Positions 885 to 29,610 of a stretch of 32,723 nucleotides of DNA are shown here, in pieces (position 1 is the stretch's first letter; each line of letters begins with the position of its first letter). This DNA comes from SAR324 cluster bacterium (GTDB lineage: Bacteria; SAR324; NAC60-12), in contig JADFZZ010000045.1 of assembly GCA_015232315.1 (NCBI GenBank), forward strand, positions 1-32,723, read 5' to 3'. The position numbers and the translations under genes were made by a program. The notes beneath the pieces are model-generated. The model had not been told where the DNA came from, ran no database searches, and saw only the letters and a program-made list of their open reading frames with translations.

Positions 885-3800
885 ATGCCAGCCATTAAAT
901 CATTCATTCAGCTCATTTCAATCATCATGCTTCTGTGGAGCACCACTGCCTGTGATTTTGAGCAGAAAACAGTAAAGGTTGACCCCCCCCAAACGCCGGA
1001 CGCAATCCAGACCGACAGTATGAACAAAACGGTCGAACCATCCGGACCCGTCGAACTTTCTGATAAATACAGTGGTAAATACAGCATTGCCTTCCACTTC
1101 CAGGGCCGGGTCACAGCCATTGTGGATCTGATCATTGAACTGGGCGCGTTTGAAGGAATCATTCAGGATACCCAGGGGCAGGTTGTCAAAGCCAGGGGAT
1201 TTGTTCTGGATGATGGGAAAATGCAATTTTCAGAACTCAAACTGCTCAATGACACCAATGCGCCTGTCACAGGCGAAGGACAAATTGCTGAAAACGGATC
1301 GGTAACCGGTAGCTTTACCATCAACGGTTATAACGGAACTTTCGATGGCTTCCGCTACTCTGACCAGAAAACCTCGGTGTATAACGGACGCTATCAGGTC
1401 GAATTCAAGAAAGCCGGGGATATTGTCGCAACCGGAACCATTGACATCACCGATGAGGGAATTGCCGGAACCTTGAAGGACAAAGATCAATACACAGTCC
1501 GTATTGTCGGGCGTGTGAATGAAAATGGAAAAATCGTGTTGAACACCGCATCTTTCAGCAGTGGCATATTGATGACCATCACTGGAAATGTCCAAAATGG
1601 AAATATTGAAGGGACCCTTTACACTCAGGAAGGTTCTGTTGGTGAACTCAAAGGCGCATCTGTTCAAGCCTCCGAAACAGGAACCGCTGATTATCTTTCC
1701 ACAACGACCAGCACATTGATCCAGTCTTCCACAGCCAGCGATTCTTCGACAAAACTTTTGGCGCTGCCAAGAGATTTTCTGCTTCAGACTCCTCCAGATC
1801 TCCCTGTGTCGATTGATGGTTTAGGCAGTGCACCGGATGGTTCAGGGGTTGATTTCAAGTGGGCGATTATTGAAAAACCTGAGCAAAGTGATCCGGTGTT
1901 GACTGGCACCAAAACATCCCAACCTTCATTTTTCTCAAACAAGCCCGGTGTTTATAAAGTAGAAATGACTGTCAGCAATTCACAGGACACCGGTAAAGCC
2001 ATCATCACCATCATTGTGCTGGAAAAAGAAACCGGCACAAACAAAACTTCCACGACAGGTCCCAACTCACAAAAATCAGCCATTGTGCTGGATGCGAACT
2101 CTTATGCGGTTGGAGATTTTGCGGTAACCTGGACTCCTTCGCTGAACGTAGCGTTTGTGATTCGGCATCAGCAGGCTCCAGAAAAAATTCTGTTCAGCGC
2201 AGACCCCCTGAAATTTCTGGCCATTGGGAAATCATCGTTGAACGCCCACGAAAAACGGGGATCATTCACCATTGATGAAAACATTCAGATGACCTGTAAA
2301 TCGCCAGCCATCGAAAAAATTGTGAGCGAAGGTGCCGATCTGGTGGTGTCAGGCCGTTTCAGGGATGATGTCGAGGCCTGTCATCAAACATTCAAGGTCC
2401 GATTCAAACAGATTCAACCGGGGCATCTTCAGTTTGCGGTCACTCCTGAAAACAAGGATTTCAATTACATCGAACTGAATTATGATTCCAATCCCGCAGA
2501 AAAATTCTATGGATTTGGCGAGCAGTTCACTTATCTCAATCTCAAGGGCCAAAATGTTCCAATCCTGTCGCAGGAAGGCGGAGTGGGTCGAGGACGCACG
2601 GAAATCAGCAATCTGATCAACATAGCGTCGCCAGGTGCTGGTGGCAATACGTTCACCACCTACTATGGCGTGCCTCAATACATCACCAGTCAGAACAGGT
2701 CTGTGTTGCTCGAAAATACAGAATATGTGGTGTTTAATCTGGAAAATCCGGCGCAGGTCAGGATCCGATTATTTGCGAATCAAATGACCGGACAGGTGTT
2801 ATACGGTGACAGTATGCTGAAACTGATTGAACGGACCACCGAATACACCGGGCGTTTTCCCGTACCCCCTGAATGGGTGAACAACGGCGCCATTGTCGGC
2901 ATCCAGGGGGGAACTGATTTTGCCCGTAAAGTTCTGAATGATCTGAAACAGAATGACACGCCTGTCGCCGGATTCTGGGTTCAGGACTGGGTTGGAAAAC
3001 GAAAAACCATTGCCGGTTCTCAGCTCTGGTGGAACTGGGAAGTGAGTGAATCCCGTTATCCGGGATGGAAACAACTGGTGGATGATCTGAACCGGGAAAA
3101 CATTCAGGTGTTGGGATACATCAACACGTTTCTGGTCGATGCCACTACCCGTGAAGGCGGTGTGAAACGGAATCTGTATCAGGAAGCAAAAGACAACGAT
3201 TATCTGGTGCATAATGAGTCAGGCGATGTGCTGGCTGTCACCAATACCGATTTTGACGCGGCGATGGTCGATCTGACGAATCCAGAAGCCAGACAATGGC
3301 TGAAAGAGGTGATCAAAACAGAAATGCTGGATAAGGGATTGCGCGGCTGGATGGCAGATTTTTCAGAAGCTCTGCCGTTTGAGGCAGAATTGCATTCCGG
3401 TGAATCAGCCGCGAGTTATCACAACAGATACCCCATGGAATTCGCCCAACTCAACCGTGAAGCCATCCGTGAAGCCGGACTGGAAAATCAGGTGCTGTAT
3501 TTCAATCGTTCAGGATATACCCGCAGTCCGCAATTCGGATCCATGTTCTGGGAAGGCGATCAGATGGTCACCTGGGATGGGCAGGATGGCTTGATCAGTT
3601 CAGTGAAAGGACTTCTCAGTGGCGGTTTTTCCGGACTCACACTCAATCATAGCGATATCGGGGGTTACACCTCACTGGCCGCCCAGGCACCGATCATCGG
3701 CTGGCAGGGATTCCGACGGGAAAAAGACCTCTTGCTGAGATGGATTGAAACCAACGCGTTCACTTCTGTGTTCCGTACCCATGAAGGCAATCAGCCTGAA

Positions 3801-6800
3801 GCCAACGCCCAGTTTTACAGCGACAAAGACAGCTATCAGCATTTCAGCAGATTTGCCAAAGTGTATAAAGCCCTCGGATTTTATCGCAAACAACTGTTTG
3901 AGGAAGCCGCCGCCAAAGGTTATCCGGTGGTTCGGCATCCGCTTTTGCATTATCCTGATGATCCTGTGTTTGCTGATATGAAAGACGCGACCATCCAGTT
4001 CATGCTGGGAAGCGAACTGATGATTGCGCCTGTGGTTCAGAAATACACCAGCACCCGCGATGTGTATCTGCCCAAAGGCCTGTGGGTGAATTTGTGGGAT
4101 CAGCAAACCTATGGCAATCCTTATGAAGGAATCTGGTTGAGAAACGTGCCTGCGCCCTTGGGCAAACCCCCGGTGTTTTATCCGGCGGAGTCCACCATTG
4201 GTCCTCAAATAGTCGCGGCGTTGCGTGCAGAAAAGATTCTTGGGCCAGACACCCCGGTTGAACTGAGCGAAGTGGATGAACGTGGATTCCGCATCAATGG
4301 ACAGTATAAAATTTTGCGTGGTGGAACCCTGCAATGGTTCAGAATCCCTGAAGAAGCCTGGGAAGACCGTATCAAACGCTTCAAAGCCATGGGCATGAAC
4401 ACGATTGATATGTATGTGTCATGGAACTTTTCCGAACCACAGGAAGGCGTATTCAATTTTGACAATCCCGGCATCACCCGTTTTCTGGAGCTGGTCAAAA
4501 AACATGGATTGTATGTTTATTTCAGGCCGGGGCCGTATATCACCAATGAAATTGATGGCGGCGGTGTTCCAGCGTGGTTGTTGACCAAAACCACCAAAAA
4601 AGACATCCGTGAAGACGGCAAACCCAATTTACGGACTCAGGATCCGGATTATCTGGACTATGTTGAAAAATACTATGACCGCTTGAACAGCGTCATCAAA
4701 CCTTATCTCATCAGCAATGGTGGACCCATCATTCTGTATGCCATTGAAAACGAATACAACTGGTTCAAGATATTCAGCGAAGTGGATAAGGCGTTTATGT
4801 ATGAGGGTGGACCCGAACGGGGACTGTTCCAGAACATTGATGTCACCGCTTATTTCAGTTCCCTGCGGGATATGCTCAGGGCTGACGGCATTGATGTGCC
4901 GATCACCACCTGTCCGGGAGACGGGAAACTTTCCAACATGGGCGACACTCCCGATGTGGTTCCCATGCCCAATGTGTATGACGGACTGGGTGGAGAGTTG
5001 CCTGAGGCCATCGGCTACAATTTGCTGACAGACATGCATGATACGTCCAAACACAACGGGGTGTATCTCAACATGCCAACAGGAACCACTGAAACCGACA
5101 GAGATCCTGTCAAACTCAAACGTCTGCTGGTCGGCGGACTGGATGGGATTTTTGCCTTCAATGTGATGGGATACCTGACCCCCGGATATCAAAACGCAAC
5201 GGTGCTGAGCAGTAAATCCGCCGATGCGATCTTCAGCGTCAATCAGCAGAATGTCTCCAATCTGTTTGTGGAACCCAAGGTGGGTTATTTCCACAATGTG
5301 GTTGATTTTTTCGGCATGGTGAGTCCTTCCGGATTGCATCGGGATTCCTTTTATGCCATGCGGCGTGACAATATGTTTTTTGATACGGTGGAAGCGATCT
5401 GGGCCAAAAGCATCATTCCGAATCGCAGTGGACAGGTGAAAAACGCTGATTCCAGGTTGAGCCTCAGCAATACCGAACTGGGAGCACGTGAAAATCAGGA
5501 CCGGATCCATTACTGGATTGAACCTGAACCGGGAATCCAGTTCATCAGTCTGATCAATCAATCGGGAAATCCACAGGTGATCAACAAAAACGGCATCACG
5601 CTGAACGGTTACCAGTTTCCACGATTCACCGATCTGACAATTCCCCTCCAGCGCTATGATTCTGACGGGCAGTTTTCACAGGCCTCCACCGACAACATTG
5701 TGGTGCTGGTCAATGGGTACCCTGTGCCTGAGATCGGGCAGATTGATTACACAACCAGCGACATGCTGACATTGCGCCCCTTCAATGACGGCACCCTGCT
5801 TGTCCTTTATGGTGAAAATGGACTGACCGGTGAGTTGTCCCTGAATGAATTGAATTCTGTCTGGGACGTCAAATACCGTGATTCCGGCATCACCCTGAAT
5901 GAAAACACAGCAGATCGTATTACCTTGAGTTATGCCTACACGCCCAATCAGTTTCTGGTGTTGCAGGACGCCTCAGGCAAAAAACTCAAAATCATGATCA
6001 CCACCAAGGATGAAGCCGGAAGAGTCTGGTTTGAGAAATGGAACAATCAGGACATGATGCTGACCGGTGTGGATTATGTGGATCCAAACAGCATACAATC
6101 CAGTTCAGACCAGTGGAACGTGATCATCGACCATGACACCAAAAACCGTCCATTCATGGTGATGGCGTCCGGACCACTGGTGTTGCGTGAAGGAATCAAC
6201 ACCCTTCAGCCGTATAATCCTGAAACAAACACAGTTGTTTATCAAAAACCGGTCAAGGTTGAACTTCCGCAACTTCCACAGACCCTGACCTCTGGAAAAT
6301 CAACATCAGATCTGGATGAAAGCCTGCCGGATTATGATGATTCAAGCTGGACTCACTGGGAAGGAGAACCAAAATTTCTGGAGGAAAACGGTATTCTCAG
6401 AGGACATGCCTGGTATCGTGTAGAAGTTGATCTGGATCATATTCCCGGCAAAACATTTTTAAAGCCTCTGGGTAATAGTGGGTTGTTCATCCGTCATGCC
6501 AGCGATATCGTTGGGATTTATGTCAATGGGCATTATGTCAGCACCATGGTTCCACTTGGCACAGAACTGCACAGTACCAGTGCCAATGGTTCCTACAAAT
6601 TTCCTGAAATCGCGCCCTGGCTGAAAATTGGAAACAATGTTCTGGCATTCCGTACAGAAATCTGGGGTCATGGCAGTTTCATGTGGCCGAGAGGAACCCT
6701 GTCGGCAACGCAGTTGCGTATGCCTGCATTGGGATTTGACAGCATGAAAGGACTTTCGGGTACTGCAGAAATTGGCAGGGTTGGTGATATGATTCCGGGA

Positions 6801-7364
6801 ATCTATTTAAGAAACTGGTCTGTCCGTGGAGACCTTGGCGGCGAGCAGAAAGGCTTCAATCAGCCCGGGTTGGATGATTCCCGCTGGGCAGGAACAAGCA
6901 TTCCGCTGAAACTCAACAAGGGGGATGTGCGCTGGTACAGAACCCGGTTTGACAATGCCGGTTTTCCTGATCCATCCCGGATCCATGCGCCTGTGGCACT
7001 GGAACTCAAAGGCCATAACGCCAAAGCTACCATTTTTCTGAATGGACTTTTGATTGGACGGTGGCTCAGTGATGACCAGTGGCTGAGCAGAGGTTTTTAT
7101 GGAAAAGGAATACGGGATATGTGGATGAACACCGAACCGGATCATTTTCCTGTTCCGATTGAATCCATCAAACCTGAAGGCAATGTGCTGAGCGTGGTGT
7201 TTGAAGACACTTCCCACTCATCTGATGCGGAAGGCGGAAAGATAGATTCGATCAAATGGGTTTATGCCCGCGAGAATAAAATAACACAGAATGATGGAAG
7301 TTCCGTCAAGGTCACGGCAGAAAAAGGTCGTCAGTCCCTGACTTTTATCCAGAATGCCCGTTGA
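885..7364 (+). CDS. Giant lipoprotein: GH31 (sulfoquinovosidase-like) fused to GH35 (beta-galactosidase-like)
   Basis: 2159 residues from the ATG at 885, which follows an AAGGGGGAGG ribosome site; an upstream TTG at 816 would spoil the signal peptide. Residues 1-23 form a lipoprotein signal (LLWSTTAC, Cys23). Two similar beta-rich modules start near 60 and 164, each opening with (S/N)G(K/R)Y. A PKD-like domain spans about 303-384. A GH31 domain covers about 400-1110, with FYGFGEQF, QDWVGKR, LWWNWE, nucleophile Asp825 in WMADFSE, acid/base Asp892 in WEGDQ, NHSDIGGYT and RTHEGNQ; these match the YihQ sulfoquinovosidase branch better than ordinary alpha-glucosidases. A GH35 domain begins near 1130, with FRPGPYITNE and acid/base Glu1290 in IENEY, followed by beta domains and jelly-roll modules from about 1800 to the end. 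It is probably anchored in the outer membrane and cleaves sugar chains or glycolipid headgroups. The fold calls are firm; the substrates are inferred. Confidence 0.88.
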   Translation: MPAIKSFIQLISIIMLLWSTTACDFEQKTVKVDPPQTPDAIQTDSMNKTVEPSGPVELSDKYSGKYSIAFHFQGRVTAIVDLIIELGAFEGIIQDTQGQVVKARGFVLDDGKMQFSELKLLNDTNAPVTGEGQIAENGSVTGSFTINGYNGTFDGFRYSDQKTSVYNGRYQVEFKKAGDIVATGTIDITDEGIAGTLKDKDQYTVRIVGRVNENGKIVLNTASFSSGILMTITGNVQNGNIEGTLYTQEGSVGELKGASVQASETGTADYLSTTTSTLIQSSTASDSSTKLLALPRDFLLQTPPDLPVSIDGLGSAPDGSGVDFKWAIIEKPEQSDPVLTGTKTSQPSFFSNKPGVYKVEMTVSNSQDTGKAIITIIVLEKETGTNKTSTTGPNSQKSAIVLDANSYAVGDFAVTWTPSLNVAFVIRHQQAPEKILFSADPLKFLAIGKSSLNAHEKRGSFTIDENIQMTCKSPAIEKIVSEGADLVVSGRFRDDVEACHQTFKVRFKQIQPGHLQFAVTPENKDFNYIELNYDSNPAEKFYGFGEQFTYLNLKGQNVPILSQEGGVGRGRTEISNLINIASPGAGGNTFTTYYGVPQYITSQNRSVLLENTEYVVFNLENPAQVRIRLFANQMTGQVLYGDSMLKLIERTTEYTGRFPVPPEWVNNGAIVGIQGGTDFARKVLNDLKQNDTPVAGFWVQDWVGKRKTIAGSQLWWNWEVSESRYPGWKQLVDDLNRENIQVLGYINTFLVDATTREGGVKRNLYQEAKDNDYLVHNESGDVLAVTNTDFDAAMVDLTNPEARQWLKEVIKTEMLDKGLRGWMADFSEALPFEAELHSGESAASYHNRYPMEFAQLNREAIREAGLENQVLYFNRSGYTRSPQFGSMFWEGDQMVTWDGQDGLISSVKGLLSGGFSGLTLNHSDIGGYTSLAAQAPIIGWQGFRREKDLLLRWIETNAFTSVFRTHEGNQPEANAQFYSDKDSYQHFSRFAKVYKALGFYRKQLFEEAAAKGYPVVRHPLLHYPDDPVFADMKDATIQFMLGSELMIAPVVQKYTSTRDVYLPKGLWVNLWDQQTYGNPYEGIWLRNVPAPLGKPPVFYPAESTIGPQIVAALRAEKILGPDTPVELSEVDERGFRINGQYKILRGGTLQWFRIPEEAWEDRIKRFKAMGMNTIDMYVSWNFSEPQEGVFNFDNPGITRFLELVKKHGLYVYFRPGPYITNEIDGGGVPAWLLTKTTKKDIREDGKPNLRTQDPDYLDYVEKYYDRLNSVIKPYLISNGGPIILYAIENEYNWFKIFSEVDKAFMYEGGPERGLFQNIDVTAYFSSLRDMLRADGIDVPITTCPGDGKLSNMGDTPDVVPMPNVYDGLGGELPEAIGYNLLTDMHDTSKHNGVYLNMPTGTTETDRDPVKLKRLLVGGLDGIFAFNVMGYLTPGYQNATVLSSKSADAIFSVNQQNVSNLFVEPKVGYFHNVVDFFGMVSPSGLHRDSFYAMRRDNMFFDTVEAIWAKSIIPNRSGQVKNADSRLSLSNTELGARENQDRIHYWIEPEPGIQFISLINQSGNPQVINKNGITLNGYQFPRFTDLTIPLQRYDSDGQFSQASTDNIVVLVNGYPVPEIGQIDYTTSDMLTLRPFNDGTLLVLYGENGLTGELSLNELNSVWDVKYRDSGITLNENTADRITLSYAYTPNQFLVLQDASGKKLKIMITTKDEAGRVWFEKWNNQDMMLTGVDYVDPNSIQSSSDQWNVIIDHDTKNRPFMVMASGPLVLREGINTLQPYNPETNTVVYQKPVKVELPQLPQTLTSGKSTSDLDESLPDYDDSSWTHWEGEPKFLEENGILRGHAWYRVEVDLDHIPGKTFLKPLGNSGLFIRHASDIVGIYVNGHYVSTMVPLGTELHSTSANGSYKFPEIAPWLKIGNNVLAFRTEIWGHGSFMWPRGTLSATQLRMPALGFDSMKGLSGTAEIGRVGDMIPGIYLRNWSVRGDLGGEQKGFNQPGLDDSRWAGTSIPLKLNKGDVRWYRTRFDNAGFPDPSRIHAPVALELKGHNAKATIFLNGLLIGRWLSDDQWLSRGFYGKGIRDMWMNTEPDHFPVPIESIKPEGNVLSVVFEDTSHSSDAEGGKIDSIKWVYARENKITQNDGSSVKVTAEKGRQSLTFIQNAR

Positions 7365-7885: not shown

Positions 7886-8494
7886 TCAGGGCACGCTCGG
7901 AAAAATTCTGCAAGACAGCCATTCATGCTGAATGAGGTGGGGCAGAATTTCTTCCACAGGAAAGCCAATCACATTGTTATAGGAACCGTCAATGCGTTCT
8001 ACCAGAAAACCGCCTAAGCCCTGAAGTGAATAAGCACCCGCCTTGTCCATCGGATCTCCGGTTCTGACATAGCTTTCAATGCAGGAATCATCCAGGGTGC
8101 GGAATTTTACCATGGTCTGAACAAGACCTTCCACACACTTTCCTGTTTTAGCGTCAAGGATCGCATAAGCTGAATAAACCACATGGATTTCACCGCTCAA
8201 ACGATGTAGCATCTGGATCGCCTGCGCTCTGGATTCTGGTTTTCCAATGATGTCATGGTTATGATAAACGGTGGTATCACCGGCAAGAATAATGGCTTCG
8301 GGAAAATGCTGAGACGCATCGGTTGCTTTGTCTTTAGCCAGTCGTGTTACATAATTTTCTACGGATTCTCCAGGCAGAGGTGTTTCATCCACCAGAGGTT
8401 TCCAGCATTCAAATTGCAACCCGTAGCGTTCCAGAAATTCTTTTCTACGGGGTGAGGTCGAAGCTAGACAAAGAAGACGATGTTGGTGGAACAT
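7886..8494 (-). CDS. maf: Maf-family nucleotide pyrophosphatase
   Basis: 202 residues from the ATG at 8494; a longer frame reaching back into mrdA has no support. Maf proteins hydrolyse non-canonical or excess nucleoside triphosphates to monophosphates in the cytoplasm and were first linked to septum formation. Family landmarks are visible in order: LASTSPRRKEFLERYGL at the N-terminus (phosphate-binding loop), VDETPLPGES, ILAGDTTVYHNHDIIGKP, and AGAYSLQGLGGFLVERIDGSYNNVIGFP near the C-terminus. The length is usual for the family. It starts 13 bases after the mrdA stop and is the last gene of the mreC-mreD-mrdA-maf run, so it is probably co-transcribed with the cell-elongation genes. Substrate preference (dTTP/UTP type or other) is not decided here. 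Confidence 0.93.
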   Translation of the reverse strand: MFHQHRLLCLASTSPRRKEFLERYGLQFECWKPLVDETPLPGESVENYVTRLAKDKATDASQHFPEAIILAGDTTVYHNHDIIGKPESRAQAIQMLHRLSGEIHVVYSAYAILDAKTGKCVEGLVQTMVKFRTLDDSCIESYVRTGDPMDKAGAYSLQGLGGFLVERIDGSYNNVIGFPVEEILPHLIQHEWLSCRIFPSVP

Positions 8495-8507
8495 GATACG
8501 TTTCAGA

Positions 8508-10388
8508 TCAGTTGTTGAAGGCGGCCTGTAACCGGTCTTTAAAAGGACTGGCAGGTGTGGAGGCTGTCTGGTGGTAGCGATGATTGATATAAAACTCAAA
8601 TATTTTACGCGCAATCGGCCCGGCGCCACTTGAACCGGCACCACCATGTTCGACCAGCACGGTCACTCCAATTTGTGGATCTTCTACCGGACCAAAAGCA
8701 ATGAACCACGCATGATTCTGGTATATTTCTTCAATTTCTTCACTTTCTTCCAGTTTTTTACTCATATTGGTATGCCCGATCACCTGGACCGTCGCTGTTT
8801 TTCCCGCAATTTTGAAATTGGAGAAGCGGGCAACACGGGCGGTACCACCGACTTCATTCACGGCGGCTTCCATCCCCTCGCGAATCAACGCCAGATAGTT
8901 CGGATTGAACTCCAGTGATTGCGGTTGCGGACCATTTTCCTGATCAAGAATCAACTTGGGTGGAATCCAGATGCCATTGTTGGCAATGATATTGACCACA
9001 TTCATCATCTGCAACGGAGTTACCAGCAAATATCCCTGGCCAATGCCAATCGGCGGCGTCTCTCCCGCATACCAACGTTCGCCATGCATCCGGAGTTTCC
9101 ATTCTTCATTGGGGATAATTCCTTCTTTTTCGTGTGGCAGTCGGAGTCCGATAGTGTTTCCCAATTTGAATTTCCGGGCATAATCATGCAATTTTTCAAT
9201 CCCTAATTCTTGCGCTACATGATAAAAATATACGTTGCAGGAACCTTTGATCGCATCCTTGAGGTTGACGGTGCCATGTCCGCCGAGTTTCCATCGCCAG
9301 CATTTGAAGGGAGTCTGACGGCCTTTGATGTAGTAAAAACCATTACAGGTGTAAGTGCTGTGTTCATTGATCACTTTCTGATCCAGTCCGGCATAGGCGG
9401 TAATCACCTTGAATGCTGAACCCGGAGGATATTGTCCCTGGATGACTTTGTTTTCCAGTGGATTATCCGGATTGTTGATCATTCTGTTCCAGTTTCTGCG
9501 TGAAATTCCAGCCGCGAATAAATTGGGATTGAATCCGGGAAAACTGCCCATTGCAAGCAGTTCACCGGATTTCAGGTCCATCACAATGACAGCGCCACTT
9601 TTGCCTTTCATGGTGTCATCCACAAGCTGTTGCATTTCAATGTCAATGGACAAATAAGCATCTTCACCGGGAATTGGATTGACTGGACGGTTCAGAATCT
9701 TCAGTTCACGGCCGACATGGTCCACCTCAATCTGCTTTCCGCCATCGGTACCGATCAAGGTGTCATTTTTAACCAGTTCCACCCCGGATTTTCCGACAAA
9801 CATTCCTGAGGTTCTTTTATTGGCAGGCATCTTTTCTTCCTGTTTTTCATCCCGAATTCCCACATAGCCCAAAATATGAGAGGCGATTTTATTGTTGGGA
9901 TAATAGCGACGCGATTGAACCACCACACTGACACCGGGAAAATCCTCCTGATAGGTTTCTACCAGGACAGCTCGTTTATGATCGAGATCTTCATCGAGAA
10001 TGATGGGTTTAAAACGCGCCTGATTTTGTTTTTCTTCTACTTTTTTCCGGAGAGACGCATAAGGAATTTTCAGGGATTCCGACAGATTTCTCAAGGTGAG
10101 TTCCAGATCTGGTGTATCTTCACGAATCAACTGAAGCTGATATGCCGGACGATTATAGGCCAGCGCTACGCCGTTGCGGTCATACAGCACACCACGAGGA
10201 GCGGCCTGCGGGATCAATCGAATTCTGTTACCCTTGGCAAATTCTGCATAACGACTGCCATTGAGTACCTGAAGAAACCATAGTCTGGAGGCCAGCAATG
10301 AAAATAACAGGGCAATGATGATTCCAATGACAATGGCCCGATTACGGAATAGTTGAATTTCTTCAGCTTGTAACGGATCGATGTTCAT
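8508..10388 (-). CDS. mrdA: Penicillin-binding protein 2 (peptidoglycan transpeptidase)
   Basis: 626 residues, a usual PBP2 length. It cross-links peptidoglycan during side-wall elongation, anchored in the inner membrane with its catalytic domain in the periplasm. One membrane helix lies near residues 17-39 (IVIGIIIALLFSLLASRLWFL), followed by the dimerisation region with APRGVLYDRNG. The transpeptidase domain carries the SxxK motif at Ser324-Lys327 (PPGSAFK) and SxN at Ser383-Asn385 (KGSCN). The third motif is K530-T-A, reading GKTATVQ, where the family usually has KTG. The gene overlaps mreD by four bases (ATGA), pointing to translational coupling, and maf follows closely. The PBP2 call rather than PBP3 rests on the mreCD context and the TPLQMMNVV and WFIAFGP regions. 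Confidence 0.95.
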   Translation of the reverse strand: MNIDPLQAEEIQLFRNRAIVIGIIIALLFSLLASRLWFLQVLNGSRYAEFAKGNRIRLIPQAAPRGVLYDRNGVALAYNRPAYQLQLIREDTPDLELTLRNLSESLKIPYASLRKKVEEKQNQARFKPIILDEDLDHKRAVLVETYQEDFPGVSVVVQSRRYYPNNKIASHILGYVGIRDEKQEEKMPANKRTSGMFVGKSGVELVKNDTLIGTDGGKQIEVDHVGRELKILNRPVNPIPGEDAYLSIDIEMQQLVDDTMKGKSGAVIVMDLKSGELLAMGSFPGFNPNLFAAGISRRNWNRMINNPDNPLENKVIQGQYPPGSAFKVITAYAGLDQKVINEHSTYTCNGFYYIKGRQTPFKCWRWKLGGHGTVNLKDAIKGSCNVYFYHVAQELGIEKLHDYARKFKLGNTIGLRLPHEKEGIIPNEEWKLRMHGERWYAGETPPIGIGQGYLLVTPLQMMNVVNIIANNGIWIPPKLILDQENGPQPQSLEFNPNYLALIREGMEAAVNEVGGTARVARFSNFKIAGKTATVQVIGHTNMSKKLEESEEIEEIYQNHAWFIAFGPVEDPQIGVTVLVEHGGAGSSGAGPIARKIFEFYINHRYHQTASTPASPFKDRLQAAFNN

Positions 10389-10888
10389 AGAGCGTTACGG
10401 GAATTGAGATGAAAAATCTGTTCACCTTTGATCAGCGCGAGAAAAATAACCGGTGACACCAGGGTGTGTAGCCCCGATACTGGTAAAACGGTGCCCAGAA
10501 ACAGGAAACTCCATGATTGCTCTTCATTGAAGATTCCCAACAGAAAGAGGCTCACCGCACCTTCAAAAGCTGACAGTACAAAGACAAAAAGCATGGTTGA
10601 AAAAATATTTTTTTCATAAAAAGCGTTACTCACAAATCTGGTCAGAATCAATGTTATAAAAAAAGAAGTTCCATAGATTCCCTGCATGCCATGTGAAAAC
10701 GAATCCAGCGTAATTCCCATGAAGATGCCCAGAAAAGCCAAAAACAAAGCCGGATGCTGCAACGTCATGACAAGCATGACGGTCAACAGGATATTGGGTT
10801 TCAAGCCAAAAACCGAGACATACTCACTAAGGATCACATTGAACCAGAGACCAAGTATTCCACAGATAAACCAGAATAAATATATCAT
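10385..10888 (-). CDS. mreD: Rod shape-determining protein MreD
   Basis: 167 residues, almost wholly hydrophobic, with about five membrane segments, as usual for MreD, an inner-membrane part of the elongasome. Recognisable pieces are FGLKPNILLTVMLVMTLQHP and the glycine-rich FLGIFMGITLDSFSHGMQGIYG. The sequence is poorly conserved in this family, so the call leans on size, topology and position. It overlaps mreC at its start and mrdA at its end by four bases each, so the three are very likely translated together. Confidence 0.9.
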   Translation of the reverse strand: MIYLFWFICGILGLWFNVILSEYVSVFGLKPNILLTVMLVMTLQHPALFLAFLGIFMGITLDSFSHGMQGIYGTSFFITLILTRFVSNAFYEKNIFSTMLFVFVLSAFEGAVSLFLLGIFNEEQSWSFLFLGTVLPVSGLHTLVSPVIFLALIKGEQIFHLNSRNAL

Positions 10889-11724
10889 TGACGGGACAGC
10901 AAGGAGGCGGTGTGTGTATTTTTCAGTATCACAAAAACTTCTTCAATCTTGTCAAAATCCACGACAGGGGTGATACGCGCAACCTGAAACAATTCATGTT
11001 CTTCATGTTCCACCTGGTTCACAATCCCCACCAGGAGTCCTTTGGGAAACAGACCGCTCAAGCCATTGGTGATCACACGGTCGCCCACCTGAACATCAGC
11101 GCGCAGGTCAATTCGCCTCAATTCAAGGCCCTCATTGATCCCATACACGATGCCTTTTGCTCTTGACCGCTGTACAATTGCCGGGAAACGGTTTCGCTGG
11201 TCGAGAATGAGTTGCACAGAAGCCTGATACGGCGAAACAGACTGAATCCGTCCCACAACACCTTCTTTCAGAATCACAGGGAAATTGCGCTGAATACCAT
11301 GTTCTGAGCCACGATTGATGAGGAGTACCTGATGGAAATTATCCACAGATTCCCCAATGACTTCCGCAAACACCTTTTTTTCCGGATTCTCTTCCGCAAA
11401 TTCGAGTTGAACTTTCAATCTGTTATAATGAATGGATTCTTCCAGATAATGGTTCAGTTCTTCTTTCAGGTGCTGGACTTCATTCTTGAGTTGTTCATTT
11501 TCCTTGTGAAGATTCACCAGATTGACATAGGACTGAATCACACCATTCACACTATTCACACTGTTATGAAACAGCATTTGAACCGGATAAGCCAGGAGAT
11601 GTGAGACTGTTTGAAGTTTAGGATTTTCAGAATATTGCCCGCTTTGAAATAAAAAACCGAGCAGAGTGATCAATGTGGCCAGAATGGCAAGGAATAGCCT
11701 GTATTTTTTTATAAGGTCCAGCAT
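10885..11724 (-). CDS. mreC: Rod shape-determining protein MreC
   Basis: 279 residues. MreC links the cytoplasmic MreB filament to periplasmic PBP2. A membrane helix lies near residues 10-27 (YRLFLAILATLITLLGFLF). A coiled coil follows at about 65-110 (LVNLHKENEQLKNEVQHLKEEL), then the two-barrel periplasmic domain with GSEHGIQRNFPVI, EGVVGRIQSVSPYQASVQLI and VQVGDRVITNGLSGLFPKGL. It is the first gene of the run. The 183 bases upstream contain no mreB; they lead to the end of hom, and I see nothing definite in that gap. The ribosome site is weak. Confidence 0.94.
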   Translation of the reverse strand: MLDLIKKYRLFLAILATLITLLGFLFQSGQYSENPKLQTVSHLLAYPVQMLFHNSVNSVNGVIQSYVNLVNLHKENEQLKNEVQHLKEELNHYLEESIHYNRLKVQLEFAEENPEKKVFAEVIGESVDNFHQVLLINRGSEHGIQRNFPVILKEGVVGRIQSVSPYQASVQLILDQRNRFPAIVQRSRAKGIVYGINEGLELRRIDLRADVQVGDRVITNGLSGLFPKGLLVGIVNQVEHEEHELFQVARITPVVDFDKIEEVFVILKNTHTASLLSRQ

Positions 11725-16791: not shown

Positions 16792-16917
16792 CCTGTCCCT
16801 TTTATAAAGAATTAGGGATAACTACTTTTGTCTGAAAACACAACATGGTTTCTCACACTGAATTGATATTCAATGCGGCGGAATCATCACTCTTCAACAC
16901 AGCACCGAAGGATCATT

Positions 16918-18822
16918 ATGAATCTGTCAAATTTGCGCGATCACCTCCCTGAAATCACTTCGAAAACAAGAGAAATCCTGAATTCACTGCCAGAACTCAC
17001 GACTCAGGCAAAAAATATTGTGGACCACTTGCCCGAGATTTCTGATAAAGCACAGGGCGTCGCACGCAGGTTTTCGTTTATTAAATCCGGATTAAAATTT
17101 TTAGGAAAAAGCGATAAAACAGAAATCCTGTCGATCGGAACTTTTCTGGAACGGAATGCCGCGGAATATCCACACCGAACCGCTCTCCTGTTTGAAGAAC
17201 AACGTTATACCCATTATGAATTCAACGCCGCGATCAACCGCTATGCCCATTATTTCATTTCGAAAGGTTTGAAAAAAGGCGATGCTGTTACCGTGTTTAT
17301 GGAAAACCGCCCTGAAATTCTGATTTGTACCGGCGCTCTGGCTAAAATCGGAGCCATCACCGCCCTGATCAATACCACCCAACGAAGCAATGCGCTGATT
17401 CACAGTTTTACCCTGAGCAATCCGAAATTGTTTGTGATCGGTGAAGAACTGGTGGAAGCGTTTCAGGAAGTCAAGACTGAGCTGAAGCCGGGCGAGGGTA
17501 CCTTGTTTTTTGTCAAGGACAAGGGCGACCATGCCGCACCCGAAGGGTTCATTGATCTGGCAGACGTGACCAGAGAAATGGCATCTCACAATCCAGGAAC
17601 CACTAAAACCGTACAGTTGGGAGATCCCTGCTATTACATTTACACTTCAGGCACCACTGGACTTCCCAAAGCCTCCATCATGACCCATTACCGCTGGGTC
17701 AAGGCCGCTGGAGCCTTCGGCATGGCGGCTCTGGCCATGAAACCGGAAGACACCATTTATGTATCCCTGCCGTTTTATCACAACAACGCGCTGACCGTCG
17801 CTTGGTCTTCTGCTGCCTCAGGAGGCTCCGCCATTGCGATCCGGAGAAAATTCAGTGCCAGTAATTTCTGGGATGATACCCGAAAATTCAACGCAACCGC
17901 ATTTTGTTATATCGGCGAACTTTGCCGGTATCTCATGAATCAGCCTGTCAAACCTGATGATGCCAATAACCCGGTCTACAAAATCATTGGTAACGGTCTT
18001 CGACCAGACATCTGGAAAGGCTTCAAACAACGTTTCGGAATCACCGAAGTTTATGAATTTTATGCCGCAAGTGAAGCCAACATCGCCTTTGTCAATCTGC
18101 TGAACCTGGACGAAACCATTGGTTTGTGTCCTGCTCCCTATGCCATTGTGAAATATGACATTGACCGTGATGAACCCGTCAAGGACGAAGATGGTTATCT
18201 GATCAAGGTCAAACGTGGTGAAATTGGTTTGTTGCTGGGGGAAGTCAGCGCAAAATATGGATTTGATGGCTACACCAACAAGGAAGCCAGTGAGAAAAAA
18301 CTGATGCGCAATGTCTTCAAAGCCGGTGATGTATGGTTCAACTCAGGCGATTTGCTCAAGGATCAGGGCTTTCGACATGCCCAGTTCGCCGATCGTTTGG
18401 GCGACACTTTTCGCTGGCAGGGTGAAAACGTCTCAACCACTGAGGTGTCCGAAGTCATCACTGTATCCAATCAGGTTGCGGAAGCCACCGTTTATGGAGT
18501 GGAAATCCCCGGAACCGATGGCCGGGCCGGCATGGCGTCACTGGTGCTCAGTGTCCCTGTCAAAGATCTGGATCTGGATGAGTTGTTGAAGCTGATGACA
18601 CAGAATCTTTCGGCCTATGCGATTCCACGATTTATCAGGGTTCAAGAAGAGTTGGCCATCACTGGAACTTTCAAACATCAGAAAGGACAGTTGAAAAAAG
18701 AAGGTTATGATCTCAGCCTGATCAAGGATCCTATTTTTGTTCTGTTGCCCAAAACAGACAAATATGTAAGGCTGACCCGAAAAATTTATAATGAAATTCA
18801 GGAGAAAGAATACCGTTTTTAA
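16918..18822 (+). CDS. FATP-type long/very-long-chain acyl-CoA synthetase (paralogue 1)
   Basis: 634 residues from the ATG at 16918, backed by GAAGGA five bases upstream; an in-frame ATG at 16873 lacks this. It should activate fatty acids to acyl-CoA through an acyl-adenylate. ANL-superfamily motifs are YTSGTTGLPK at 242-251, FYAASEANIAF, WFNSGDL, and DRLGDTFRWQGENVSTTEV, the last typical of the SLC27/FATP branch. The C-terminal TGTFKHQK holds the expected catalytic lysine region. Residues about 1-50 form three similar amphipathic units (LPEITSK, LPELTTQ, LPEISDK) that could contact membranes. In the FYGASEGN motif both glycines are alanine here, unlike the second copy at 22569. It ends about 120 bases before the thioredoxin gene. 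Confidence 0.9.
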   Translation: MNLSNLRDHLPEITSKTREILNSLPELTTQAKNIVDHLPEISDKAQGVARRFSFIKSGLKFLGKSDKTEILSIGTFLERNAAEYPHRTALLFEEQRYTHYEFNAAINRYAHYFISKGLKKGDAVTVFMENRPEILICTGALAKIGAITALINTTQRSNALIHSFTLSNPKLFVIGEELVEAFQEVKTELKPGEGTLFFVKDKGDHAAPEGFIDLADVTREMASHNPGTTKTVQLGDPCYYIYTSGTTGLPKASIMTHYRWVKAAGAFGMAALAMKPEDTIYVSLPFYHNNALTVAWSSAASGGSAIAIRRKFSASNFWDDTRKFNATAFCYIGELCRYLMNQPVKPDDANNPVYKIIGNGLRPDIWKGFKQRFGITEVYEFYAASEANIAFVNLLNLDETIGLCPAPYAIVKYDIDRDEPVKDEDGYLIKVKRGEIGLLLGEVSAKYGFDGYTNKEASEKKLMRNVFKAGDVWFNSGDLLKDQGFRHAQFADRLGDTFRWQGENVSTTEVSEVITVSNQVAEATVYGVEIPGTDGRAGMASLVLSVPVKDLDLDELLKLMTQNLSAYAIPRFIRVQEELAITGTFKHQKGQLKKEGYDLSLIKDPIFVLLPKTDKYVRLTRKIYNEIQEKEYRF

Positions 18823-22568: not shown

Positions 22569-24386
22569 ATGTTTATCAATTCTGAAACAGTTGAGCAGAT
22601 CCAGAAAAGCACAAAACTTGCGTTACGAAAAATACCGGTGCTGGCCGGAAGTTTAGGAATGCTGCTTAAAAAGAACAAGACCGAACGTTATTCGATTGGT
22701 AAACTGATAGAACAAAACGCCCGTTTATATGCCGGGTTTCCCGCGATTAAATTTGAAAACCGGACCATCAGCCATAAAACCTTCAATGAAGAATCCAATC
22801 GCTATGCCCACGCCTTGAGCAACGCTGGCATCAAAAAAGGGGATGCTGTGGCGGTTCTCATGGAAAATCGGCCTGAAATGCTGTTTTGCATTGTCGGCAT
22901 TGTGAAAATTGGCGGCATTGCCAGTCTGATCAATACCAATCAACGGAAAAATGTGCTGACACACAGCTTCAAACTTTGCAATCCTGCCCTGTATCTCATC
23001 GGTGAAGAGCTCACGGAAGCCTTTCAGGAAATTCGTGGAGATCTGGATTTTTCAAAGCAACAACCTGTGTGGCATGTCGCGGATCACGGCACGGAATCTT
23101 GTCCTGATGGAATGCTATCGGCTGAAGCCTTTTTAAAAACAGCTTCGACTGACAATCCGTCTCAGCTCAGGGATGTTTGTCTGGGCGATCCCTGTTTTTA
23201 TATCTATACCTCCGGAACAACCGGTCTTCCCAAAGCGTCCATCATGAGCCATCTCCGCTGGATCAAGGCCGCTTCAGGTCTGGGAGGTGTGTGCCTTGAA
23301 CTCAAACCGGGAGATACCATGTATGCCCCGTTGCCCTTGTATCACAACACAGCCTTGACTGTAGCCTGGGGGGCGACCACCTATGCTGGTGCCGCCATTG
23401 CGCTTCGCCGTAAATTCAGCGCGTCCCATTTCTGGGAAGATACGATCAAGTTCAATGCCGTTGCTTTTTGCTACATTGGTGAATTATGCAGATACCTGCT
23501 CAATCAGGCCCCCCAACCCCATGATTCGCAAAACCCGGTCAAAAAAATGGTGGGCAATGGATTACGGCCTGATATCTGGAAAACTTTCAAAAACCGGTTT
23601 GATATTGCCGAAATATACGAATTTTATGGTGCCAGTGAAGGCAACATCGCATTTGCCAATCTATTGTCGCTGGAAAACACCGTCGGATTTTGTCCTGCGC
23701 CCTATGCGATTGTGGAATTTGATATCAATACGGAAGAACCCGTCAGGGATGGCAAAGGTTACATGCGTCGGGTCAAATGGGGCGGAACCGGATTGTTGCT
23801 TGGAGAAGTTTCTGAACGATACGCGTTTGATGGTTATACCGATCAATCCGCCAGTGAAAAAAAGCTGTTCAGGAATGTGTTCAAGAAAGGCGATGTATGG
23901 TTCAATACTGGCGATCTCATGAAAGATCAGGGTTTCCGCCATGCCCAGTTTGTGGATCGGGTGGGCGACACGTTCCGCTGGAAATCAGAGAATGTTTCCA
24001 CAACGGAAGTATCTGAAGCGATCAATCAGTTTGCTGGTGTCCAGGAATCCACCGTATATGGTGTGGAAATTCCAGGATGCGTTGGCCGGGCCGGCATGGT
24101 CGCCGTTGTTCTTTCTGTTCCCATGGAAGCCTTTGATCTCAAAGGTTTTTACCAGCACCTTAAAAGTGAATTGCCGTCTTATGCGATTCCGGTTTTTCTG
24201 AGATTCCAGAAAGAACTTGAAATAACGGGAACCTTCAAACACCGTAAAGTGGAATTAAAAAAGGAAGGTTTTGATATTCACACCGTCACGGATCCCCTGT
24301 TTGTTCTGTTTCAAAAAGCAAAAAGCTATGTTGCTATCACTGAAGAAGAACATGCCGCAATCATGAGCGGTTCCCGATCTTTTTAA
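22569..24386 (+). CDS. FATP-type long/very-long-chain acyl-CoA synthetase (paralogue 2)
   Basis: 605 residues from the ATG at 22569, after a GGGGGAG ribosome site. A longer open frame from 22149 reads antisense through the lipase gene and is rejected. Motifs are the same as in the copy at 16918 and closely similar throughout: YTSGTTGLPK at 213-222, FYGASEGNIAF with both glycines kept, WFNTGDLMKDQGFRHAQFVDRVGDTFRWKSENVSTTEV and TGTFKHRKVELKKEG. It lacks the triple LPE repeat of the first copy; its N-terminus is a shorter basic amphipathic stretch. The expected reaction is ATP-dependent thioesterification of long fatty acids with CoA. The DUF2283 gene follows after 12 bases, probably in the same transcript. 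Confidence 0.91.
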   Translation: MFINSETVEQIQKSTKLALRKIPVLAGSLGMLLKKNKTERYSIGKLIEQNARLYAGFPAIKFENRTISHKTFNEESNRYAHALSNAGIKKGDAVAVLMENRPEMLFCIVGIVKIGGIASLINTNQRKNVLTHSFKLCNPALYLIGEELTEAFQEIRGDLDFSKQQPVWHVADHGTESCPDGMLSAEAFLKTASTDNPSQLRDVCLGDPCFYIYTSGTTGLPKASIMSHLRWIKAASGLGGVCLELKPGDTMYAPLPLYHNTALTVAWGATTYAGAAIALRRKFSASHFWEDTIKFNAVAFCYIGELCRYLLNQAPQPHDSQNPVKKMVGNGLRPDIWKTFKNRFDIAEIYEFYGASEGNIAFANLLSLENTVGFCPAPYAIVEFDINTEEPVRDGKGYMRRVKWGGTGLLLGEVSERYAFDGYTDQSASEKKLFRNVFKKGDVWFNTGDLMKDQGFRHAQFVDRVGDTFRWKSENVSTTEVSEAINQFAGVQESTVYGVEIPGCVGRAGMVAVVLSVPMEAFDLKGFYQHLKSELPSYAIPVFLRFQKELEITGTFKHRKVELKKEGFDIHTVTDPLFVLFQKAKSYVAITEEEHAAIMSGSRSF

Positions 24387-27933: not shown

Positions 27934-29610
27934 ATGAAACATGATTACTACACCGGAATCCTTGTCGGTATCGTACTGATGCTCGGGGTATCCGCAACAC
28001 AGGCCCAAGCTCAGGAAAAATGCCTCACATGCCATAAAGAAACCATCAACTTATCTGTATTTCATAATCCGGATTCGATTGGTTGTGTTGCCTGTCATTT
28101 GGGGGATGCGATGGCCACAACCCTTGAGCTGGCACATGTCAATCTTGAAGCTTATCCGGGGCAATGGAACACGATTGACCAAACTTGCGGGAAATCAGGC
28201 TGTCATGCGGACTTGGCAAAAGTGGTCCAAACTTCGTTGATGAACACGATGCATGGTGTGATCAGCAAAACCCGCAGGATTCTTGACGGCAAAGAGACAT
28301 CAAGCAGGAATTCACCAGATCAGCTTACCGCTGAAGGGGTTGATGACTATCTGAGAAAAATGTGTGTGTCCTGCCATTTGGGAAATAAACGGTCGCATCA
28401 TCAGCAAACCCTGCTGGATCGTGGTGGCGGATGCGCCGCATGCCATCTCAAGGCAGGGCAGACCCGTGCCGCTTCTCAGAAAAACGTTAGAACCGGAAAA
28501 CATCCTGAACTATCGCTGGCTGTGGACAACGACCGCTGTTTTGGCTGTCACAGTCGCTCCGGGCGAATTTCTCTCAATTATGTGGGATTGGCAGAAACGA
28601 GTGAACTCGATCCAAAACGACTGGCTGATTTTGGAACACTGCCTGATGGACGACTTGTGGAAAAACTGGCACCAGATGTTCACAGTTCGGCAGGAATGGC
28701 CTGTATTGATTGCCACACGGCCGATGAAGTGATGGGCGATGGCAAATCACACGCCACTCTTCAGACGCAACTGGATATTCAATGCGCAGACTGTCATGCG
28801 CCACAATTAACCTGGAAACCTGCGGAAGCCCTGACTCCAAGGGAACGACTGTATCCAGTGTTGTACAACCAGTCTGAGTTGTTGTCTCAGTCCAGGTTTA
28901 TTGTGACATCCAAAAATAAGACCCCCCTGTTCCACGTATCCGAAAACTCAGGGAAACGTGTGCTGACTTCAAAAATTACAGGAAAAGCGCATCTCGTTCC
29001 GGTGATGAAAACGGGCAAGCATCATAATTTTACCCGGCATCAGCGGCTTTCCTGTGACAGTTGTCACAGTTCATGGGTTCCGCAATGTTATGGATGCCAC
29101 ATTTCACAGGATCCGGATCAAACCCAATGGGATCATATTTCTGCCAAACCCACTCCGGGCCGATGGCTTGAAAACGCATGGGCCATCAAGCATGGTCTGC
29201 CAGCGTTGGGAGTGGGGAACAATCAAAAAATCATTCCGTTTATTCCCGGAATGAATTTAAGCTTTAAACATCCTGAAACAGGAAAAACCATCAGCAGGAA
29301 TCTGTTTGCCGCCATTTCGCCTCATACGACAAGAAACAGCCGCACCTGCAAAAGCTGTCATCAGAATGATCAGGCCCTGGGAATTATTACAAAACTGGAA
29401 ACGTCTCCACAGAATAAAGATTGGAAAACGCCTGATGGATGGATTTTTGCCGAAAGTGACCTTCCGGGCAAAGCAACCAATCCCGGTGACAGGAGTTTCA
29501 ACAGCCTGGAAATTCAGAAAATCAGGCAGGTTGGAAAATGTCTGGAATGTCATGCAGAAACCTACCGTGATTTTGATAGCACTTTGCCTCGACCTTCACG
29601 CCATCCTTGA
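27934..29610 (+). CDS. Periplasmic twelve-haem cytochrome c
   Basis: 558 residues with a signal peptide (MKHDYYTGILVGIVLMLGVSATQAQA). Eleven CxxCH sites start at Cys30, 51, 144, 167, 202, 257, 284, 374, 385, 472 and about 537; a CX4CH site starts at Cys85 (CGKSGCH), giving twelve probable covalent haems. The haem pairs CDSCHSSW/CYGCHISQ are closely packed, while about 80 residues between the eighth and ninth sites have none. It should shuttle electrons in the periplasm or at the cell surface. No porin, quinol oxidase or NrfA-type partner lies beside it, and I recognise no named family. No clear ribosome site precedes the ATG. Convergent or co-directed neighbours are separated by more than 120 bases on each side. 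Confidence 0.9.
   Translation: MKHDYYTGILVGIVLMLGVSATQAQAQEKCLTCHKETINLSVFHNPDSIGCVACHLGDAMATTLELAHVNLEAYPGQWNTIDQTCGKSGCHADLAKVVQTSLMNTMHGVISKTRRILDGKETSSRNSPDQLTAEGVDDYLRKMCVSCHLGNKRSHHQQTLLDRGGGCAACHLKAGQTRAASQKNVRTGKHPELSLAVDNDRCFGCHSRSGRISLNYVGLAETSELDPKRLADFGTLPDGRLVEKLAPDVHSSAGMACIDCHTADEVMGDGKSHATLQTQLDIQCADCHAPQLTWKPAEALTPRERLYPVLYNQSELLSQSRFIVTSKNKTPLFHVSENSGKRVLTSKITGKAHLVPVMKTGKHHNFTRHQRLSCDSCHSSWVPQCYGCHISQDPDQTQWDHISAKPTPGRWLENAWAIKHGLPALGVGNNQKIIPFIPGMNLSFKHPETGKTISRNLFAAISPHTTRNSRTCKSCHQNDQALGIITKLETSPQNKDWKTPDGWIFAESDLPGKATNPGDRSFNSLEIQKIRQVGKCLECHAETYRDFDSTLPRPSRHP

Follow-up and report, generated by a model that had tools for sequence, protein, structure and literature searches.

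The window studied here is a stretch of 32,723 nucleotides from a SAR324 cluster bacterium (contig JADFZZ010000045.1), and our subject is a gene near its start that encodes a predicted lipoprotein in which a GH31 glycosidase runs directly into a second, GH35-like half. We lean, with a little more than even confidence, towards a gene fusion carried on a lipoprotein anchor, in which an active GH31 enzyme with a re-targeted pocket is joined to a GH35-like half that is most likely still catalytic. A first-pass annotation, made from the sequence alone, had proposed one secreted lipoprotein joining a GH31 to a GH35 glycosidase. A single extracytoplasmic protein with modules of both types is supported: profile searches, the check it had suggested, assigned both a GH31 and a GH35 domain, and the junction between them coincides with the ends of separate relatives. 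The parts that carry the argument are as follows.

885-7364, + strand: whole open reading frame, fused GH31/GH35-like putative lipoprotein of 2159 residues (frame, translation, Pfam)
2091-4199, + strand: GH31 module of YihQ type, residues 403-1105, with beta-sandwich, barrel and C-terminal domain (Pfam, NCBIfam PRK10426, solved relatives)
4200-4268, + strand: junction, residues 1106-1128, where the C-terminus of the GH31 relatives is directly followed by the mature GH35-like N-terminus (alignment with relatives)
4269-5414, + strand: GH35-like barrel, residues ~1129-1510 (Pfam, alignments, model, Foldseek)

The gene is a single unbroken frame of 2159 codons with no internal stop; it opens with ATG, and AGGGGGAGG, a good ribosome-binding site, lies just 5' of it. 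A search of the source genome returned the fused protein once, again without internal stops, and it is there the sole GH35 and one of two GH31 proteins. At the junction, the GH31 relatives end in ...NLR.LGVK, aligned to residues ~1112-1119, and the mature GH35-like relatives start with L.NG.PY.VS, aligned to residues ~1119-1128, while neither a signal peptide nor a start codon remains between the two halves. On these alignments the window protein reads as two mature proteins set end to end, the second signal peptide having gone and a lipobox, beta modules and a PKD domain apparently standing in place of the first. Because the ends of the relatives abut exactly at the junction, with no signal peptide between them, the comparison favours a true fusion of genes over an assembly join. 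Neighbouring genes may be wrongly joined in a draft genome, here one of 88 contigs, and the fusion was seen in no other genome searched, but an artefact of this kind is very improbable: 6.5 kb are in frame without a stop, the GC content of the halves is alike (0.50 and 0.49), and a clean loss of signal peptide and start codon at the mature N-terminus is not what a misjoin would be expected to leave. The frameshift or join near 4200-4280 that the earlier annotation had named as its refuting case was not seen in the assembled sequence, in which the frame is unbroken (reads were not mapped).

Among 52 genomes of the window's phylum, neither the GH35-like protein nor the fusion was found in any besides the source. 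No second fusion turned up in the class and phylum of the relatives as sampled, where all matching frames spanned at most 784 residues (GH31) and 1082 residues (GH35-like); viral contigs held no relatives, phage records gave partial GH35 matches only, and literature searches found no GH31-GH35 fusion. The statement that GH31 and GH35 enzymes are normally separate proteins stands for this pair, but in the same search GH35 was found joined to GH20 in a Bacteroidales metagenome-assembled genome (MAG) (L042:3513-7124) and to GH43 in a Verrucomicrobia MAG (L072:3934-8205). As in the window gene, another glycosidase is placed ahead of a GH35 in both, although their GH35 is canonical and the partner family differs. 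Fusion of a GH35 to another glycosidase is already known in kind and is not new. For the pair itself, the xyloglucan locus of Cellvibrio japonicus offers a functional parallel, since its periplasmic CjXyl31A alpha-xylosidase and CjBgl35A are GH31 and GH35 exo-enzymes that act together on one glycan; they are, however, separate proteins from one gene cluster, and the GH31 is an alpha-xylosidase and not of YihQ type (PMC4285296).

The GH31 half is complete. Pfam placed the N-terminal domain at residues 460-617, the barrel (PF01055) at residues 680-982 (7e-37, 127.9 bits against a cut-off of 23.5) and the C-terminal domain (PF21365) at residues 1012-1103 (60.5 bits against 24.4), and the YihQ model PRK10426 of NCBIfam scored 730.8 bits against a cut-off of 553. 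The best solved relatives are 8r56 together with the sulfoquinovosidases YihQ, SftG (6pnr) and that of A. tumefaciens. Three positions, all located by alignment, bear on its activity.

3357-3359, + strand: Asp825, the predicted GH31 nucleophile, equivalent to YihQ Asp405
3558-3560, + strand: Asp892, the predicted GH31 acid/base, equivalent to YihQ Asp472
3021-3023, + strand: Gln713, in the place of YihQ Arg301, the sulfonate-binding residue

The half is of the same GH31 type as Escherichia coli YihQ and Eubacterium rectale SftG, to which it is about 35% identical across the module as a whole. It retains the two catalytic Asp residues and, among five pocket residues examined, four (the equivalents of Gln262, Gln288, Trp304 and Tyr508). 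The fifth differs: Gln713 replaces Arg301, which binds the sulfonate in the YihQ structures. To place this change, 21 YihQ-type sequences were compared, drawn from 398 sampled Pseudomonadota genomes together with the window, E. coli YihQ, G031 and G231. Their pockets, read at positions 262, 288, 301, 304 and 508, follow the patterns KERWY (8 sequences), QQRWY (7) and QQQWY (6, namely the window and five relatives); Arg occupies position 301 in 15/15 sequences outside QQQWY, and the QQQWY sequences form a single clade with a support of 100/100. The half thus carries the GH31 domain profiles and both catalytic Asp residues and lacks Arg301, a defining residue of the sulfoquinovosidase group. Since this residue is Gln, and marks a clade outside the 15 Arg-bearing sequences, the GH31 half is probably not a sulfoquinovosidase. 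Literature searches found no described GH31 carrying Gln at this position.

It could still be argued that the half is a genuine sulfoquinovosidase whose sulfonate pocket has a variant form, as YihQ is its closest characterised type and the other four pocket residues are retained. We consider this quite improbable, given that an Arg invariant in all the other YihQ-type sequences is replaced, and that the gene neighbourhoods of the window and of the unfused relatives, read by eye, contain no recognisable sulfoglycolysis gene. The setting differs as well: YihQ sits in a sulfoglycolysis cluster, whereas the GH31 half of the window is extracytoplasmic and fused.

The second half departs further from its family. 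Pfam GH35 (PF01301) matched residues 1135-1305 (2.5e-50, 172 bits against a cut-off of 27), but over model positions 1-160 of 319 only, and the match ends at the same place in 4/4 full-length relatives. These relatives and the window protein make up what we call the subfamily, which was compared with 79 other GH35 sequences. The features concerned are listed here.

4752-4754, + strand: Glu1290, acid/base position in ENEYNWF, invariant (alignments)
5070-5072, + strand: Asn1396, nucleophile position (NxPxG in place of ExxxG), invariant in the subfamily (alignments)
5091-5093, + strand: Glu1403 in TE[TS]DRDP, invariant candidate replacement residue (alignments)
5706-6017, + strand: BetaGal_dom2-like all-beta domain, residues 1608-1711 (Pfam)
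6843-7217, + strand: BetaGal_ABD2 jelly-roll domain, residues 1987-2111 (Pfam)

The acid/base column (ENE, end of beta4) holds Glu in 79/79 other GH35s, and the nucleophile column (ExxxGW, end of beta7) holds Glu in 78/79, but Asn in 5/5 subfamily members. There the motif NxPxGxTExDRDPV replaces the canonical nucleophile region, TE[TS]DRDP being invariant in all five, and the block around the sugar site, RPGPYVCAEWDFGG by consensus in other GH35s, has become RPGPYITNEIDGGG. Asn1396 is assigned to the nucleophile position chiefly by the spacing of motifs, NxPxG being matched to ExxxG by counting towards the N-terminus from the helix ahead of beta8, and by the fact that Glu1403 is the only Glu nearby; hhalign of the subfamily against the 79 GH35s scatters gaps over the beta7 region, and the MAFFT alignment also slides the loop.

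An AlphaFold model of this half built on a 54-row alignment (mean predicted local distance difference test, pLDDT, 66; predicted template-modelling score, pTM, 0.75) was matched by Foldseek to large GH35 beta-galactosidases over their whole length, with template-modelling (TM) scores of 0.60-0.62. A single-sequence model reached a pLDDT of 29.6 and was not used. The enzymes of Penicillium (1tg7), Aspergillus niger (5ift) and Desulfurococcus (8qqh) share the overall fold (TM 0.60-0.66), the acid/base ENE and the all-beta and jelly-roll domains trailing the barrel. They differ in that their ExxxGW nucleophile motif is NxPxG in the window half, whose second barrel half is unlike Pfam GH35, and identity in the structural alignments is 15-17%. 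The best sequence matches are archaeal exo-beta-D-glucosaminidases of GH35 type (5gsl, 5gsm, 8oug), which align with the first 190 residues and have the GGTLQ-FR motif in common with the window half, but the match ends before the nucleophile half. In its second half the barrel is to a large extent remodelled. Because the fold and the acid/base residue are those of GH35 and the nucleophile is not, this half is named GH35-like.

Of the two complete-looking glycosidase domains, each with its acid/base motif, that the first-pass annotation had described, both motifs were recovered, Asp892 in GH31 and Glu1290 within ENEY in the GH35-like half. The completeness holds for GH31 alone, the other domain having lost its nucleophile along with much of its second barrel half, and the implied GH35 beta-galactosidase activity is unsupported. 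An ordinary retaining GH35, and with it the standard two-activity glycosidase envisaged there, would require that beta7 be misaligned and that Glu1403, invariant and seven residues past the expected place, be a displaced nucleophile in a fold that does match GH35. This is improbable in our view: NxPxG lies without gaps on ExxxG, just ahead of the helix leading to beta8, the loop of Glu1403 is shortened, and the Pfam match ends before the beta7 region in every full-length member. A non-catalytic pseudo-glycosidase, which would only bind glycan and so aim or hold the active GH31, is a more serious contender though still on the unlikely side. It would account for the change of the nucleophile Glu to Asn throughout the subfamily and for the other altered residues of the sugar pocket; against it, proteins about 50% identical all retain ENEY and the new NxPxGxTExDRDPV block, and the relatives, being secreted and stand-alone, carry no other module that could be aimed.

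These relatives first came to light when genome contigs were searched with the GH35 alignment, which gave a protein of a Fluviicoccus MAG 49% identical over the entire GH35-like half; the same contigs scanned with the whole fused protein as query gave no match. Three further full-length members came from the same gammaproteobacterial family (349 genomes). The unfused GH35-like proteins (L011, L099, L100 and L101, in G052, G229, G231 and G250) are secreted, stand-alone and of ~1045 residues, with 46-50% identity to the window half. Unfused GH31 relatives with the same Gln and 49-52% identity number two in G052, the Fluviicoccus MAG (L091 and L092), and one in G231 (L109). Across each entire half these proteins are thus 46-52% identical to the window protein and share its residue changes; they differ in being encoded by separate, unlinked genes, with ordinary signal peptides and no beta/PKD spacer. 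The two QQQWY GH31 genes of G052 are paralogous, and L092 has neighbours in common with the single GH31 copy of G231.

A shared pathway is supported by the fusion itself and by the finding that, of the 349 genomes, the two with the GH31 both have the GH35-like protein as well. Such a coincidence would have a probability of 2.5e-4 if holders were independent, a figure that ignores the kinship of the two genomes, which belong to the same family. This kinship is one of several points that weigh against the fusion of two cooperating enzymes favoured above. At least two genomes hold the GH35-like protein without the GH31, the unfused genes are unlinked and lie among unrelated neighbours, both of which weaken the functional link, and Asn1396 and Glu1403 are placed with low confidence in the model, whose beta7 region has a pLDDT of 25-37. 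Since the GH35-like protein occurs alone in some genomes and the unfused genes have unrelated neighbours, the link between the halves is suggestive only. The neighbourhoods of the unfused relatives gave no hint of substrate.

In the fusion that we favour, two formerly separate extracytoplasmic proteins would have been joined and attached, by way of beta and PKD spacers, to a lipoprotein anchor, and the product would be exported and held at the membrane. The GH31 half would be a retaining exo-alpha-glycosidase with Asp825 as nucleophile and Asp892 as acid/base, its C6 pocket switched from a sulfonate (Arg301) to a neutral group (Gln713), and would remove a terminal neutral alpha-hexosyl residue instead of sulfoquinovose. 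The GH35-like half, with the GH35 fold and Glu1290 kept and the standard nucleophile unusable, would most likely still act as a catalyst by means of Glu1403, or an Asp close to it, in the invariant TExDRDP loop. It may target a sugar that belongs to the same glycan and has a beta or another linkage, acting on or binding the next sugar. A single chain would then concentrate both activities on one glycan at the membrane. Processing of two linkages on one substrate, as first suggested for this protein, may be correct and draws some support from two relatives, each of which has both halves as unfused proteins. Going further, the NxPxGxTExDRDPV group could be undescribed clan GH-A glycosidases lacking the standard Glu nucleophile, whose fusion here to a GH31 clade with a novel specificity would make an exo-enzyme that works on one glycan in two steps; we put this forward tentatively, as a possibility that we doubt more than we believe.

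The N-terminal part of the protein is made up of the following elements.

885-953, + strand: lipoprotein-type signal MPAIKSFIQLISIIMLLWSTTA followed by C23, with Asp at +2 (read by eye, with the lipobox and Asp+2 rules)
1050-1364, + strand: beta module 1, residues ~56-160, no Pfam family (module comparison, Pfam)
1365-1679, + strand: beta module 2, residues ~161-265, no Pfam family (module comparison, Pfam)
1788-2018, + strand: PKD-like domain, residues 302-378 (Pfam, E 5e-5, 23.6 bits against a cut-off of 27)

The signal is short and hydrophobic; by eye, its lipobox STTA-C23 fits the loose general pattern of PROSITE, with no Leu at -3. In E. coli, lipoproteins with Asp at +2 are kept at the inner membrane, and by this rule the fused protein may reside on its periplasmic face, which counts among the points against the favoured reading. 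The two repeated beta modules and the PKD-like domain reported earlier are present, although the likeness of the modules is weak (23% identity over 83 residues, E ~4e-5 in a two-sequence comparison) and the PKD match is just under its cut-off; a Pfam search matched no family to either module.

Elsewhere in the window, a truncated IS66-family transposase lies at the contig edge (3-653, - strand), 230 bases upstream of the fusion gene. A cell-shape cluster resembling mreC, mreD and mrdA (PBP2), then maf, occupies 7886-11724 (- strand), the longest frame of maf overlapping the end of mrdA. Two paralogous long-chain acyl-CoA synthetase-like genes (16873-18822 and ~22572-24386, + strand) flank an alpha/beta hydrolase and a PhoH-like gene, and a multihaem c-type cytochrome of 558 residues with many CxxCH motifs is encoded at 27934-29610 (+ strand).

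Our analysis thus brings forward a clade of YihQ-like GH31 proteins in which the sulfonate-binding Arg is swapped, a testable group in which gain or loss of sulfosugar specificity can be addressed. The small GH35-like group with a conserved Asn at the nucleophile position provides a second testable set of sequences, for which automatic GH35 or beta-galactosidase labels are unsafe. Finally, the fusion suggests that the two halves share one glycan as their target, so that fewer candidate substrates need be considered.

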